Origin: a virus
DNA length: 28,582 nt
Direction: 5' to 3' (one strand)
IMG/VR virus record: IMGVR_UViG_3300017744_000103
Location: 1-28,582 of that record
Below the pieces are notes generated by a model. That model ran no database searches. It saw only the letters and a list, made by a program, of their open reading frames with translations, and had not been told where the DNA came from. The first letter of the stretch is position 1, and every line of letters starts with the position of its first letter. The position numbers were made by a program, and so were the translations under genes. This document shows, piece after piece, positions 14,684 through 28,582 of this stretch.

Positions 14684-16978
14684 ATGAATGGAATAAACAC
14701 AATGAATGTTACAAAAAGAGACGGAAGCATACAGCCTTTCGATTTAGATAAAGTACATAAAGTTTTAGAATGGGCAGTTGAAGATATCACTGGTGTATCA
14801 ATGTCGGAGATAGAGCTAAAAGCAAATATCCAACTATATGATAAAATCCCAGCATATAATATCCATGAGCTATTAATCAAGTCGGCATCAGAACTCATAT
14901 CCGAACATACACCTAACTATCAATTTGTCGCGGCAAGGCTGATTAGTTATAAACTCAGAAAAGAAGTTTATGGAGACTACAAACCTTGGCATTTAGAAGA
15001 TATAATACAAACAAACGTTGATAAAGGTGTATATGATAAAGCTATATTAGACAATTATAGCGATGAAGAAATAAGCGAACTAAACGAATATATTAAACAC
15101 GATAGAGACGATACATTTACTTATGCTGGAATGGAACAGTTCCGTGGTAAATATCTTGTCCAAGACAGAAGAACTAAAGAACATTATGAAACTCCACAGG
15201 TTTTATACATGATGGTATCTGCAACTTTGTTTAGTGGATATCCAAAAGAAATAAGGATGAAATACGTAAAGGATTACTATGATGCAATTTCTCAGTTTTA
15301 TATTTCGTTACCCACACCGATTATGGCAGGAGTTAGAACACCTACTAGACAATTTAGTTCCTGTGTTCTTATTGAGTCTGGCGATAGTCTTGATTCCATT
15401 AATGCTACTGCTACTAGTATTGTTAAATATATAAGTAAGAAAGCAGGGATAGGAATTGGTGCAGGTGCTATTAGAGCTGAAGGTGCTAAAGTTGGCGATG
15501 GTTCTGTAGTTCATACAGGATTAATACCATTCTTAAAGTATTTCCAATCAGCAGTAAAATCTTGTTCACAAGGTGGAGTTAGAGGTGGTGCAGCCACTGT
15601 ATATCTTCCTGTATGGCATTATGAGTTTGAAGATTTAGTAGTATTAAAAAATAATAAAGGTACTGAAGAAACTAGAGTCAGACATATGGATTATGCATTT
15701 CAGTTTAATAAATTAATGTATGAAAGATTATTAACTGGTGGTAATATAACATTCTTTGACCCTAATGATGTACCTGGTTTATATGATGCATTCTTTGCTG
15801 ACCAAGATGAGTTTAAAGAACTATATGAGAAATACGAAAGAGCTACAAGTATACGCAAGAAAAAACTACCAGCACTCGAAGTCTTTTCACAATTCTTAAC
15901 TGAAAGAAAAGATACTGGAAGAATATATGTAATGAATGTTGACCATGCAAATGATCATGGAGCATTTAATCCAACTCGTGCACCTATACACATGAGTAAT
16001 TTATGTTGTGAAATAGATTTACCAACTAAACCAATGGACGTTGATAGTGAAGGCGAAATATCACTATGTACACTATCTGCAATTAATTGGGGTTTAATAC
16101 ATGAACCACATGAATTCGAAAAGTATTGTGATTTATCAGTTAGAGCTCTTGATGAATTACTTGATTATCAGGATTATCCTGTAGCTGCTGCAGAAAAAGG
16201 TACCATGGGTAGAAGACCATTAGGTATAGGTATTATTAACCTAGCATATTTCTTGGCAAAACGTGGATTAAAATATGATGAATCAGCATATGAGATTGTA
16301 GATGAATATGCTGAAGCATGGTCGTATTATCTTATTAAAGCATCAGCAAACCTAGCTCTTGAAAAAGGAAAAGTAATATATAATAATGATACGAAATATT
16401 CCGAAGGGATACTTCCTATTGATACTTATAAGAGAGCGATAGATAATCTAATCGAGTCCAGGGAACGTCTACCGTGGGAAGAATTGCGAAAGCAACTCAG
16501 GGAAACAGGTATTCGAAACTCTACTCTCATGGCATTAATGCCTGCTGAAACAAGTGCTCAGATAAGTAATAGTACAAATGGTATTGAACCTCCTAGAGCT
16601 TTAGTATCATATAAACAAAGTAAAGATGGGGTTATGGCTCAGGTTGTACCTGGTTATCACCATCTCAAAAATAAGTACGATTTACTCTGGGATCAAAAAT
16701 CTCCAGCAGGTTATCTTGGTATCTGTGGTATATTACAAAAATATATTGACCAAGGAATTAGTGTAAACACATCTTATAATCCAGAACATTTTGAGGATAA
16801 TAAGATACCTATGTCAGTAATGATACAGGATTTAGTAACAGCATATAAATATGGATTAAAACAATTATATTATTTTAATACATTTGATGGTGCTGGAGAA
16901 ATGGAAGAAGAATATCATACATATGATGGAACAGAAGTAATAGAAGATGAGGATGATTGTGATTCATGCAAAATTTAA
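14684..16978 (+). CDS. nrdA: Ribonucleoside-diphosphate reductase, large subunit (class Ia, T4 type)
   Basis: 764 residues against 754 in T4. Reduces ribonucleotides to deoxyribonucleotides for phage DNA synthesis, together with NrdB. Diagnostic stretches are an ATP-cone-like N-terminus (VTKRDGSIQPFDLDKVHKVL), TPTRQFSSCVLIESGDS, QGGVRGGAATVYLPVWH, SNLCCEIDLP with the active-site cysteine, and ALMPAETSAQISNSTNGIEP. The C-terminal thiol pair is in DDCDSCKI. Two starts are possible, 14684 (fits the promoter but has no leader) and 14702 (MNVTKRDG, closer to the T4 N-terminus). The first is given; the second remains open. Confidence 0.97.
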   Translation: MNGINTMNVTKRDGSIQPFDLDKVHKVLEWAVEDITGVSMSEIELKANIQLYDKIPAYNIHELLIKSASELISEHTPNYQFVAARLISYKLRKEVYGDYKPWHLEDIIQTNVDKGVYDKAILDNYSDEEISELNEYIKHDRDDTFTYAGMEQFRGKYLVQDRRTKEHYETPQVLYMMVSATLFSGYPKEIRMKYVKDYYDAISQFYISLPTPIMAGVRTPTRQFSSCVLIESGDSLDSINATATSIVKYISKKAGIGIGAGAIRAEGAKVGDGSVVHTGLIPFLKYFQSAVKSCSQGGVRGGAATVYLPVWHYEFEDLVVLKNNKGTEETRVRHMDYAFQFNKLMYERLLTGGNITFFDPNDVPGLYDAFFADQDEFKELYEKYERATSIRKKKLPALEVFSQFLTERKDTGRIYVMNVDHANDHGAFNPTRAPIHMSNLCCEIDLPTKPMDVDSEGEISLCTLSAINWGLIHEPHEFEKYCDLSVRALDELLDYQDYPVAAAEKGTMGRRPLGIGIINLAYFLAKRGLKYDESAYEIVDEYAEAWSYYLIKASANLALEKGKVIYNNDTKYSEGILPIDTYKRAIDNLIESRERLPWEELRKQLRETGIRNSTLMALMPAETSAQISNSTNGIEPPRALVSYKQSKDGVMAQVVPGYHHLKNKYDLLWDQKSPAGYLGICGILQKYIDQGISVNTSYNPEHFEDNKIPMSVMIQDLVTAYKYGLKQLYYFNTFDGAGEMEEEYHTYDGTEVIEDEDDCDSCKI

Positions 16979-17199
16979 GAGATAAGATTAATCAAAGAAT
17001 GGATATCTTACAAAGTTGGATGGAACAAGATTATCATATAAAAAAACCTGAAGTCGTATATGACCATACCTTAACAATAAGTAAATTTTGGTCAGTACTT
17101 TCAGAAGAAGATAAAGATTATATACAATGTGCACAAGATGCAATAGAAACAAAATCAGTCATATCATGGAGACCAAATGGCAATATTAACAAAGAATAA
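16966..17199 (+). CDS. Hypothetical 77-aa protein between nrdA and nrdB
   Basis: Overlaps the end of nrdA by 13 bases and the start of nrdB by 23, so it is embedded in the reductase operon. The sequence is helical (LRDKINQRMDILQSWMEQDY; FWSVLSEEDKDYIQCAQDAI) with no motif I know. Position suggests a reductase-related or neutral passenger role. I recall small ORFs in this slot in other marine phages, but not their function. Confidence 0.72.
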   Translation: MQNLRDKINQRMDILQSWMEQDYHIKKPEVVYDHTLTISKFWSVLSEEDKDYIQCAQDAIETKSVISWRPNGNINKE

Positions 17200-18250
17200 A
17201 AAATCTCATTTATTAAAGAATATGTTTTTAGATGAGTCAGTAGATATACAGCGATTTGATTTAGTAAAGTATCCTCAGTTAGAAAAAATAACAGAAAAGC
17301 AACTTGGATTCTTTTGGAGACCCGAAGAGGTAGATATTTCAAAAGATAAGAAAGACTTTGATGCTCTAACTGAACATGAAAAACATATCTTTACATCAAA
17401 TTTAAAAAGACAAATATTATTAGATAGTGTACAAGGAAGAGCACCAAACCTTGCGTTTCTACCTATTGCATCTTTACCAGAAGTAGAGAATTGGGTAGAG
17501 ACATGGTCATTCTTTGAAACTATTCACTCAAGATCATATACACATATTATTAGAAATGTATATCCTGACCCTGCAGTTGTATTTGACACGATGTTAGATG
17601 TGAAAGAAATACTTGACTGTGGTAACGATATCGCACTGTATTATGATGATCTTATTGATTGTAATAATTCAACAACAAATAGAATGGATCACAAGCGTGC
17701 ATTATATATGTGTATGCTTTCAGCGAATGCCCTAGAAGGAATTCGTTTTTATGTTTCCTTTGCCTGCAGTTGGGCATTTGCTGAACTTAAGAAGATGGAA
17801 GGTAATGCAAAGATTATTAAATTTATTGCCCGTGATGAAAATACACACCTAGCTGGAACTACAACCATTTTAAAGAAAATGTTATTAGAAGATAAAGATA
17901 TGCAGAAGATTGCAAAAGAAATGGAACCACGAGCGACAGAACTATTTGTTAAAGTTATAGAACAAGAAAAAGAGTGGGCTGAATATTTATTCGCCAATGG
18001 CTCTATGATTGGTCTTAATGAAACAATATTAAAAGAGTACGTTGAATGGATAGGATGTAAACGAATGAGAGCCATTGGTTTAACTTGTCCTTACACCGTA
18101 CCACAGATGAACCCACTACCATGGACAGAAAAATGGATTGCTGGAAGTAGTGTGCAAGTTGCACCACAAGAAACAGAAATCACATCTTATGTTACTGGTG
18201 GTGTTAAACAAGATGTTGATGACAACACATTAAAAGGATTAAGTTTATAA
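17177..18250 (+). CDS. nrdB: Ribonucleoside-diphosphate reductase, small subunit (class Ia, T4 type)
   Basis: 357 residues; the ferritin-like subunit that carries the di-iron centre and tyrosyl radical. Matches T4 NrdB across QLGFFWRPEEVD, LLDSVQGRAPN, WSFFETIHSRSYTHI, ALEGIRFYVSFAC and NAKIIKFIARDENTHL (ExxH metal ligands), and the tail QVAPQETEITSYVTGG. GGAGA (17168-17172) precedes the ATG. It is 31 residues shorter than T4 NrdB, mainly from a shorter central insertion. Partner of nrdA upstream. It differs clearly from the second NrdB at 28075-28582. Confidence 0.97.
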   Translation: MAILTKNKKSHLLKNMFLDESVDIQRFDLVKYPQLEKITEKQLGFFWRPEEVDISKDKKDFDALTEHEKHIFTSNLKRQILLDSVQGRAPNLAFLPIASLPEVENWVETWSFFETIHSRSYTHIIRNVYPDPAVVFDTMLDVKEILDCGNDIALYYDDLIDCNNSTTNRMDHKRALYMCMLSANALEGIRFYVSFACSWAFAELKKMEGNAKIIKFIARDENTHLAGTTTILKKMLLEDKDMQKIAKEMEPRATELFVKVIEQEKEWAEYLFANGSMIGLNETILKEYVEWIGCKRMRAIGLTCPYTVPQMNPLPWTEKWIAGSSVQVAPQETEITSYVTGGVKQDVDDNTLKGLSL

Positions 18251-18420
18251 TGGAAGCTATATTAGATGCTCATGACTACGCTGAGTTTAAAAAAAGAGTA
18301 GATATATTAAAAGAAAAAGGTATTGACCTAAATCATCGTGTAAACGAACAAGGTAGTAAGTATCAAGTAATTGTTGATACATATTATACTAAAGAAGAAT
18401 TGGACACGCTTACAGAATGA
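18250..18420 (+). CDS. Small 56-aa protein after nrdB
   Basis: ATG at 18250 overlaps the nrdB stop as TAATG, and the TGA overlaps the cytochrome start as ATGA, so the frame is coupled on both sides. It reads MEAILDAHDYAEFKKRV..., then VNEQGSKYQVIVDTYYTKEE: one helix and a beta pair, a plausible small fold. I recall no family. Without this gene there would be an unexplained 166-base gap in a packed operon. Confidence 0.75.
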   Translation: MEAILDAHDYAEFKKRVDILKEKGIDLNHRVNEQGSKYQVIVDTYYTKEELDTLTE

Positions 18421-18848
18421 AAGGTTATATATTATTAATATGTTTGTTTATGTTTGGTTTAATAAATTGGACACACGCAAACTTAGAATATAAAGGGTAC
18501 CCAAGAAATACAGCTTGTACAGGAGAATGTTACAAGGAGTATATTAGAGTAAATGGCACGGTTGTAGAACAACTTGAGGCCAAAGCTGAAATTGCTGCAT
18601 CGGATCCATTCAGTTCTATTAGAGGACTATGGGCAGGATGCGCAGCATGTCATGGAGCAGAAGGACAAGGTATGGGAGCATTTCCACAATTAGCTGGAAG
18701 AGATTCAGAGTATATAATTGATAGGTTAACTACTTATAAGAATAGAGGCCAGGTTGGTAATATGAGTTCAACTATGTGGGCTCAAGCTGGTATGTTATCA
18801 GAAAAAGATATAGAAACAATAGGAAAATTTATAGAGGAAACACTATGA
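18417..18848 (+). CDS. Secreted c-type cytochrome (cytochrome c553-like)
   Basis: 143 residues. Residues 1-21 are a Sec signal peptide (hydrophobic core ILLICLFMFGLI, end THA). WAGCAACHGAEGQG holds the covalent haem site CxxCH (C75, C78, H79), followed by FPQLAGRDSEYIIDRLTTYK and Met116/Met120 as candidate sixth ligands (GNMSSTMWAQAGMLSEKDIE), as in the periplasmic class I cytochromes of bacterial respiratory chains. An extra C34/C38 pair precedes the haem domain. It would need host cytochrome c maturation. It overlaps small coding genes on both sides and shares their base composition, so it is a resident phage gene and not a bacterial contaminant. Confidence 0.93.
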   Translation: MKGYILLICLFMFGLINWTHANLEYKGYPRNTACTGECYKEYIRVNGTVVEQLEAKAEIAASDPFSSIRGLWAGCAACHGAEGQGMGAFPQLAGRDSEYIIDRLTTYKNRGQVGNMSSTMWAQAGMLSEKDIETIGKFIEETL

Positions 18849-19063
18849 TAGAAATATATGGAAAAGACAATTGCCCATTTTGTGATATGGCAAAAGTACT
18901 ATGTACAAAAGAACAAAAAGAATATAAGTATTTTCAGTTAGGAATAGACTTTGGTAGAAATGAAATGTTAGAGAAATTCCCTACAGCAAGAACCTTTCCA
19001 CAAATTATACTAGATGGCGAAAAGATTGGTGGTTTTGACCAATTAAAAGAAAAGATAGGATAG
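18845..19063 (+). CDS. Glutaredoxin
   Basis: 72 residues from the ATG that overlaps the cytochrome stop as ATGA; an upstream in-frame codon at 18776 would lie inside the cytochrome gene. The CPFC active site is at 10-13, the cis-proline loop is TFPQI, and IGGFDQL is the glutathione-site glycine region. The natural role is to pass electrons to the ribonucleotide reductase, as T4 NrdC does, and it lies in the same operon as nrdA and nrdB. Confidence 0.92.
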   Translation: MIEIYGKDNCPFCDMAKVLCTKEQKEYKYFQLGIDFGRNEMLEKFPTARTFPQIILDGEKIGGFDQLKEKIG

Positions 19064-21463: not shown

Positions 21464-21859
21464 ATGAACAAAAAATTTATTAAAATTACAACATGGATCA
21501 TTGACTGCTGGAGAGTGGTAATGGACCATAGATTTAATCCACTTAGGTTTATTCCAGATCCAAGTTTACAAATGTATTTCACAGTTGTGTTATTCACAAT
21601 GTGGTCAGTATACTTTGGCTTTGTTGCAACATATTATATGGGATGGCTTGGTTATGATATTATCTTAAGCATTGCAGTTCACTTAGGGGTATTAATACCT
21701 TTATTCTTTACCAATGCTATCTTTTTAGATGCAGAAAGAAATGGTTCTAAATGGCTAAAAGACGTAAGAGTTGAAATAGATATTGATGCTATGGATAAAA
21801 GATTGAAACAACGAAACTACGAAAAAAGAGTTAAGTGGGATATCGATAAAGAAGCATGA
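21464..21859 (+). CDS. Membrane protein, 131 aa, two predicted spans
   Basis: Residues about 37-58 (MYFTVVLFTMWSVYFGFVATYY) and 64-86 (YDIILSIAVHLGVLIPLFFTNAI) are hydrophobic and give two membrane segments, with charged ends on both sides. The FNPLRFIPDPSLQMYF stretch before the first span is one I recall from small membrane proteins of marine T4-like phages. An early promoter directly at the ATG suggests early expression, perhaps an envelope-level effect on the host; that is inference. Confidence 0.78.
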   Translation: MNKKFIKITTWIIDCWRVVMDHRFNPLRFIPDPSLQMYFTVVLFTMWSVYFGFVATYYMGWLGYDIILSIAVHLGVLIPLFFTNAIFLDAERNGSKWLKDVRVEIDIDAMDKRLKQRNYEKRVKWDIDKEA

Positions 21860-22684: not shown

Positions 22685-22891
22685 ATGTACCAACAACAAT
22701 TACAATTACAACTTAATAAAACTAGAGATGCAACTCCTGAAGAACATGAGGAGTGGATAAATAACGAACTATTACCAATAGGTGATATGCAGTTAAAATT
22801 TGTAGCGATGATGTCGGTAATACAATTTGCAACTCTAGGTATGATGATGGTTAGTTTTTGGGTTATTGGTACATTCATATCAGGAGAATAA
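22685..22891 (+). CDS. Small tail-anchored membrane protein, 68 aa
   Basis: The polar N-terminal half (YQQQLQLQLNKTRDATPEEH) is followed by a hydrophobic stretch at about 38-66 (LKFVAMMSVIQFATLGMMMV, then SFWVIGTFI) reaching the C-terminus. Likely a single-pass membrane protein. Its end is within two bases of the EF-hand gene. Function unknown. Confidence 0.7.
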   Translation: MYQQQLQLQLNKTRDATPEEHEEWINNELLPIGDMQLKFVAMMSVIQFATLGMMMVSFWVIGTFISGE

Positions 22892-22893
22892 AA

Positions 22894-23166
22894 ATGAAAA
22901 AACTATTAAGCATTTCAATATTCTCACTATTTGTATCAGATGCATTTGCTGATGATTGGAGAATGAGAAAATTTGATTTAAACGATAATAATGTAATAAG
23001 CGAAGCTGAGTTAATTCAATCTGGTTGTAGATTAGGTAAAAGGTTTGACCTTGCTGACAAAAATAATGATGGCGTTCTAAATAGAAAAGAAGCTAGAAGA
23101 GCATCAGATTATTTGTTCAGGAAGAGATGTCCTAAGAACCCACAGCCAATTGATATCAGAGGCTAA
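22894..23166 (+). CDS. Secreted EF-hand calcium-binding protein, 90 aa
   Basis: Start 22894 follows AGGAGA; an in-frame codon at 22858 would spoil the signal peptide. Residues 1-19 are a Sec signal (KKLLSISIFSLFVSDAFA, cut before DD). Two canonical EF loops follow: D28-N30-N32...E39 (DLNDNNVISEAE) and D55-N57-D59-G60...E66 (DKNNDGVLNRKE), with a C45/C79 pair that could form a disulphide. It should bind Ca2+ in the host periplasm or outside the cell. Partner unknown. Confidence 0.87.
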   Translation: MKKLLSISIFSLFVSDAFADDWRMRKFDLNDNNVISEAELIQSGCRLGKRFDLADKNNDGVLNRKEARRASDYLFRKRCPKNPQPIDIRG

Positions 23167-28074: not shown

Positions 28075-28582
28075 TTATTTAAAAATATCTTGCCAATTTC
28101 CTTGGGTGCTCGCCTTAGCATACTCGGTAGCACGGTTTTCAAAAAAGTTGGTATGCTCAACAGCGTTTACTTGCATATCTATCCATGGAAGAGGATTATC
28201 AGTACTATGAAATATTTTCTTCATACCAATACCCAATAGTCTTCGATCTGCAATATAACGTATATACTCTTTTACTTCTTTAGCAGTTAAGTCAGGTACA
28301 TCTACCTTTCCAAAACAAATATCAATAAAACTATCTTCTAGCTCTACTGTTCTTTCTGCTGCGCAGTAAATCTCATATTTTAATTTATCAGTCCATAATT
28401 CTGGATTTTCACTGATAAAAGTTCTAAAAAGTTGGGATAATCCTTCAACATGAAGAGACTCGTCTCTTATTGACCATGTTACAATTTGTCCCATACCTTT
28501 CATTAGGTTGTGTCTGGGGTAGTTAAGAAGAATAGCAAAACTACTAAATAGTTGTACTCCTTCTGTAAATGCACTATATACT
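28075..28582 (-). CDS. Second ribonucleotide reductase small subunit (NrdB/NrdF family), C-terminal part, 5' end outside window
   Basis: The minus-strand frame is open to the window edge and reads VYSAFTEGVQLFSSFAILLN, then GMGQIVTWSIRDESLHVEGL, with the ExxH di-iron ligands. The C-terminus HTNFFENRATEYAKASTQGN is typical of bacterial class I beta subunits. This differs from the T4-type NrdB at 17177-18250, whose equivalents are ALEGIRFYVSFAC and FIARDENTHL. An internal ATG at 28503 is not the start, because conserved sequence continues upstream. Whether a matching large subunit lies beyond the edge is unknown. Confidence 0.9.
   Translation of the reverse strand, partial: VYSAFTEGVQLFSSFAILLNYPRHNLMKGMGQIVTWSIRDESLHVEGLSQLFRTFISENPELWTDKLKYEIYCAAERTVELEDSFIDICFGKVDVPDLTAKEVKEYIRYIADRRLLGIGMKKIFHSTDNPLPWIDMQVNAVEHTNFFENRATEYAKASTQGNWQDIFK

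Follow-up and report, generated by a model that had tools for sequence, protein, structure and literature searches.

A predicted membrane-anchored cytochrome c common among uncultured, mostly marine phages, and its recurrent linkage to an alternative oxidase

To our knowledge, cyanophage photosynthesis is the only case in which phages are well documented to control the electron transport of their hosts. During cyanophage infection, electrons are proposed to exit through PTOX or COX, with plastocyanin feeding COX (PMC10452541, PMC5082946). Plastocyanin (petE) and PTOX are a phage-encoded soluble-side electron carrier and a phage-encoded di-iron quinol oxidase. A haem c motif is also found in phage-encoded SoxD (PMC8190135), a subunit of a sulfur oxidation enzyme. 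Cytochrome carriers were not observed in a study of nitrogen-cycle phages (PMC8115048), and 158 sequences from the viral fraction of a 2012 virome study were reported as 'cbb3-type cytochrome C oxidase' (PMC3474794). Among bacterial proteins, cytochromes cy and c552 of Rhodobacter and Paracoccus have an N-terminal anchor, a linker and a single class I haem c domain, and shuttle electrons from the bc1 complex to an oxidase.

We found that a phage gene encodes a small cytochrome c whose predicted architecture is like that of cytochromes cy and c552; the likeness is one of architecture, not of sequence membership. Unlike phage SoxD, the product appears to be a small anchored carrier, and it occurs in different phages. 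The gene lies in an IMG/VR record of 28,582 bases, the whole of which was analyzed (the window). The window holds T4-like replication genes, and its DnaB is 60-64% identical to that of marine T4-like phages. The features discussed here are as follows.

14684 to 16978, + strand: NrdA, ribonucleotide reductase (RNR) large subunit (PF02867, 5.7e-120)
17177 to 18250, + strand: NrdB, class I RNR small subunit (PF00268, 1.9e-43; phrog_86)
18250 to 18420, + strand: 56-aa open reading frame, present in 5 loci of the set
18417 to 18848, + strand: membrane-anchored monohaem class I cytochrome c, 143 aa (predicted from a Pfam PF00034 match, viral relatives and a fold match)
18423 to 18479, + strand: N-terminal hydrophobic helix, residues 3-21 in the AlphaFold (AF2) model, probable uncleaved signal anchor
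18516 to 18530, + strand: C34-x-G-x-C38 motif followed by Y39, a family-specific second cysteine pair
18639 to 18653, + strand: CAACH haem c attachment motif, residues 75-79
18774 to 18776, + strand: M120, probable axial haem ligand
18845 to 19063, + strand: glutaredoxin with a CPFC motif (PF00462, 2.1e-9)
21464 to 21859, + strand: two-TM membrane protein, relatives of which adjoin the cytochrome in related loci
22685 to 22891, + strand: single-TM small protein, of a family found in 36 loci and adjoining the cytochrome in 18

A sequence-only reading of this DNA had proposed a c-type cytochrome at 18417-18848, and the coordinates and translation check out. The 143-aa product matches Pfam Cytochrom_C (PF00034) with an E value of 1.3e-7 (33.3 bits; cut-off 21.3) and contains one CxxCH. 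In an alignment of 61 diverse family members, ten residues were invariant: C34, G36, C38, Y39, C75, C78, H79, P90, M120 and W121. The same reading had placed CxxCH at 75-79 and named M116 and M120 as candidate axial ligands. All three are present in the translation. M116 is replaced by Q in 21 of 95 family sequences, so the axial methionine is likely to be M120. M120 is also the residue opposite the Met of Vibrio c554 in an alignment.

The predicted structure is consistent with this assignment. An AF2 model with a mean pLDDT of 85.5 superseded an earlier one built from 28 close sequences (pLDDT 68). In this model, residues 63-143 take a class I fold like that of Thioalkalivibrio c546/556 (8yts, Z 10.5), Vibrio c554 (2zzs, Z 9.3) and Pseudomonas nautica c552 (1cno, Z 9.2). 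The likeness to the c554/c552/c553 group extends to CxxCH, a downstream axial Met and 29-32% identity over residues 64-143. Unlike these proteins, the phage cytochrome bears a membrane helix at its N-terminus and a conserved linker, some 40 residues long, with the CxGxCY motif. Sequence and model together contain the features that define a class I Met-His cytochrome, namely CxxCH, a C-terminal axial methionine (M120) and the class I fold. The product is thus predicted to be a monohaem class I, c553/c554-like cytochrome c, haem loading being part of that prediction. The CxGxCY pair might form a disulfide or serve as redox thiols.

Two further comparisons gave little. The BFVD structure library held no meaningful match to the phage cytochrome (best E 2.6). 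One chain of the CIII2-CIV/cy supercomplex of R. capsulatus matched weakly in structure (Z 3.8, rmsd 7.3), and we count this as no evidence. The best NCBIfam profile was that of CcoP, subunit III of cbb3 oxidase (TIGR00782). Membership in that family was rejected: the score of 24.7 bits is far under the cut-off of 179.95, there is one haem motif rather than two, and the other cbb3 subunits are absent. Judging from this weak match, the phage family may nevertheless be the source of the 158 sequences in the 2012 virome study.

The N-terminus had been called a clear signal peptide of a secreted, c553-like protein. A haem c domain on the periplasmic side remains the likely arrangement; secretion is probably wrong. 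The window's copy has a plausible cleavage site (THA followed by N). Just 23 of 91 family members have a strict AxA-type site, and many have Q, N, D or P where the -1 residue would fall. For these reasons we favor a signal anchor over a cleaved signal peptide: the N-terminal helix more likely stays uncleaved in the membrane, with the haem domain on the periplasmic side.

The sequence-only reading had called secreted haem proteins of the respiratory type rarely reported in phages. Among uncultured phages, most of them marine, the gene is common. From fetched loci we gathered 95 distinct sequences. At least 390 IMG/VR contigs encode relatives, and a divergent clade in IMG/VR comes in addition to these. 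No relatives were found at E 0.01 among the 50,697 phages of INPHARED, no match was found in PHROGs, and in the open-licence literature we found no published description of this family or of the oxidase that accompanies it in some phages (see below).

Because c-type cytochromes are common in bacteria, and because three metagenome-assembled genomes (MAGs) contain the gene, we considered whether it stems from contaminating cellular DNA, or is an insertion, by chance or degraded, confined to one genome. Each MAG copy adjoins phage-type nrdAB, and other genomes from the same groups give only weak haem-domain matches (at most 42.9 bits, vs 223). We therefore take the MAG contigs to be misbinned phage, and a scan of genome contigs with two exact peptide patterns matched only such misbinned phage contigs. 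Long contigs with the gene carry head, tail and terminase genes, and the median pairwise dN/dS of the family is about 0.19. Together with the number of viral contigs, these results refute contamination and a rare degraded insertion alike, and the probability that we leave to either is next to nil. The genomes labelled Synechococcus, Planctomycetaceae and Sphingobacteriales (L082, L083 and L084) include contigs of cytochrome phages, probably misbinned.

The cytochrome gene is embedded in a nucleotide-reduction operon, as the sequence-only reading had described. Downstream of nrdA and nrdB, it overlaps the 56-aa reading frame through an ATGA at 18417-18420 and the glutaredoxin gene, whose ATG is at 18845, through another at 18845-18848. 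The order nrdB, small reading frame, cytochrome, glutaredoxin recurs across viral metagenomes, and glutaredoxin lies immediately 3' of the cytochrome in 41 of 80 loci. Elsewhere in the window, positions 28075-28581 (- strand) encode an apparent second RNR small subunit, of a type unlike the NrdB at 17177-18250 and cut by the contig end. Positions 22858-23166 encode a small EF-hand protein with a signal-peptide-like N-terminus, possibly a secreted calcium-binding phage protein.

These neighbors could indicate a redox-stress protein that supplies electrons for envelope reactions of peroxides or thiols. Glutaredoxin, peroxiredoxin, DoxX and an alternative oxidase would then make up a kit against oxidative stress instead of one for energy. 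The frequency of the adjacent glutaredoxin, the presence of peroxiredoxin and DoxX in neighboring loci and the invariance of the extra cysteine pair are consistent with such a role. However, glutaredoxin is cytoplasmic and serves RNR, and reading of the long contigs turned up no periplasmic peroxidase. We consider this explanation unlikely. In some phages a gene for a DoxX-family membrane protein is directly 3' of the cytochrome (L023:6419-6877, L103:8932).

Small membrane proteins are the other recurrent neighbors. Searches of Pfam, PHROGs and NCBIfam with the two-TM protein gave nothing over cut-off, and the single-TM protein matched nothing in PHROGs or NCBIfam. Among 80 loci retrieved using the two-TM protein, its gene is directly upstream of the cytochrome in 19. 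Elsewhere it stands alone, also in phages without the cytochrome, and an obligate partnership between the two was therefore rejected. The recurrent adjacency to membrane proteins of no known family might mean that the cytochrome is a haem sensor in a membrane complex, specific to phages, with the two-TM and one-TM proteins, acting in lysis timing, control of membrane potential or superinfection exclusion. We regard this as quite unlikely: the two-TM protein is not confined to the vicinity of the cytochrome, and haem c proteins of the Met-His class I kind usually carry electrons rather than act as sensors.

We found that the cytochrome gene is recurrently linked to a gene for an alternative oxidase (AOX). 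In four contigs AOX is the next gene after the cytochrome (PF01786, 224.5 bits; cut-off 22.7). Aligned with AOX of T. brucei, the phage protein keeps all di-iron ligands (E, ExxH, E, ExxH). A scan of IMG/VR with the phage AOX as query returned 205 relatives, and the family (L006:6432-6992; loci L194-L273) is present in at least 205 IMG/VR contigs. Phage C48C1 has a member too, annotated as a hypothetical protein (OQ984149, 26255-26815). Grouped at 90% identity, the AOX genes form 31 clusters; the cytochrome is the immediate neighbor in 6 of these and within 4 kb in 11. By our own estimate, with roughly 150 genes per genome, fewer than one adjacency would be expected by chance. Among AOX contigs over 30 kb, 12 of 30 contain the cytochrome.

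The pairing takes at least four gene orders, including TM2-cyt-AOX, nrdB-x-cyt-AOX-grx, nrdB-AOX-cyt-TM1-grx and nrdB-cyt-grx-x-AOX. In the window's own lineage (NrdA 83%) the order is nrdA-nrdB-TM1-cyt-AOX-grx. AOX was not found in the window itself, and within the nearest cytochrome set just 4 of 47 contigs have it. The pairing is thus recurrent and not obligatory, and the window holds part of a module whose AOX partner appears in related phages.

We suggest, with moderate confidence, that the phage cytochrome acts as an anchored electron shuttle and keeps the quinol pool of the host oxidized, in some phages together with AOX. An uncleaved N-terminal helix would tether the protein to the inner membrane, with the haem domain in the periplasm. 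Maturation would depend on the c-type cytochrome machinery of the host, which we assume to be present. The cytochrome would most likely accept electrons from the host bc1 complex and pass them to the host cytochrome c oxidase, both likewise assumed to be present, as membrane-anchored cytochrome cy/c552 does. COX1 was absent from 21 cytochrome-bearing records. A phage-encoded cytochrome c oxidase was rejected on this basis, and if the cytochrome is respiratory, the acceptor must be a host oxidase. AOX in related phages would oxidize quinol directly and so provide a second quinol outlet. The shared purpose may be to maintain an oxidized quinol pool and running respiration as host proteins decay and dNTPs are produced by the phage. 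A part in respiratory electron flow, as first proposed from the sequence, is plausible and gains from the recurrent linkage to AOX, with electron transfer presumed.

By analogy, the cytochrome and AOX may best be explained as doing for respiration what plastocyanin and PTOX do for photosynthetic electron transport in cyanophage infection. The carrier differs from plastocyanin in using haem rather than copper, in its probable membrane anchor and in being encoded by genomes without psbA. The phage AOX and PTOX (phrog_4235) are distant matches (1.4e-4).

Two points argue against the shuttle model. Shuttling electrons leaves the conserved CxGxCY motif unexplained, and AOX bypasses cytochrome c, so that the pair may act separately. 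Since AOX, its partner in some phages, is a non-pumping oxidase, the cytochrome could also be a decoy or brake that diverts or blocks host electron flow, lowering the proton-motive force or starving a competing pathway. The complete axial ligation and strong conservation favor a working carrier instead, and we consider a decoy very unlikely.

The cytochrome gene occurs in more than one kind of phage. Two long contigs that have it, of 135 and 103 kb, are T4-like, and both include a curli cluster and IscU. Two 75-kb contigs combine the cytochrome with a family A DNA polymerase, a curli cluster and IscU, and one 75-kb contig has an HK97-type protease, portal and tape measure. The gene calls on these long contigs were made by reading protein sequences, not by profile searches. 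By gene content, then, T4-like genomes and HK97-type siphovirus-like ones both carry the cytochrome, and these backgrounds are intermixed on its tree. At least 13 changes among three RNR backgrounds are required on this tree, many forks of which are weak; the gene therefore appears to move between phage lineages.

Other genes are also common to these unrelated phage types. Judged by reading, these are the curli cluster (csgG/csgF-like and curli-repeat proteins; L189 and L191, 75-kb siphovirus-like; L095 and L104, T4-like) and CHASE2- and FecR-like proteins. IscU-like scaffolds were likewise read at L095:8896, L103:19462, L189:8803 and L191:10315, and an A-type Fe-S carrier (PF01521) is at L022:7048-7353, in genomes of the same phages.

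The phage relatives bear on the host. A cyanophage origin was rejected: a psbA-type gene is absent from the 21 records, and TerL of one cytochrome phage is 55.8% identical to that of phage C48C1 and about 44% identical to those of cyanophages. The curli cluster has been reported as a hallmark both of pelagimyophages (PMC7029224) and of the OM43 phage Melnitz (PMC9004378). A search for tmRNA or RNA families as host clues found nothing but tRNAs. SAR11-like or other Proteobacteria as hosts would fit the phage relatives.

We propose, tentatively and at slightly less than even confidence, that phages of marine heterotrophs carry and exchange a dedicated respiratory module, shared by T4-like and siphovirus-like lineages, that rewires host electron transport during infection. 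The module would consist of an anchored, CxGxCY-linker cytochrome c of a phage-specific family, often with AOX and small membrane partners. If this is true, a cytochrome c and AOX pair that is widespread and conserved among phages lacking psbA would extend viral steering to respiration in heterotrophic bacteria, which form the larger share of the ocean's oxygen consumers, and the two genes would be specific ones to seek in infection proteomes and metatranscriptomes.
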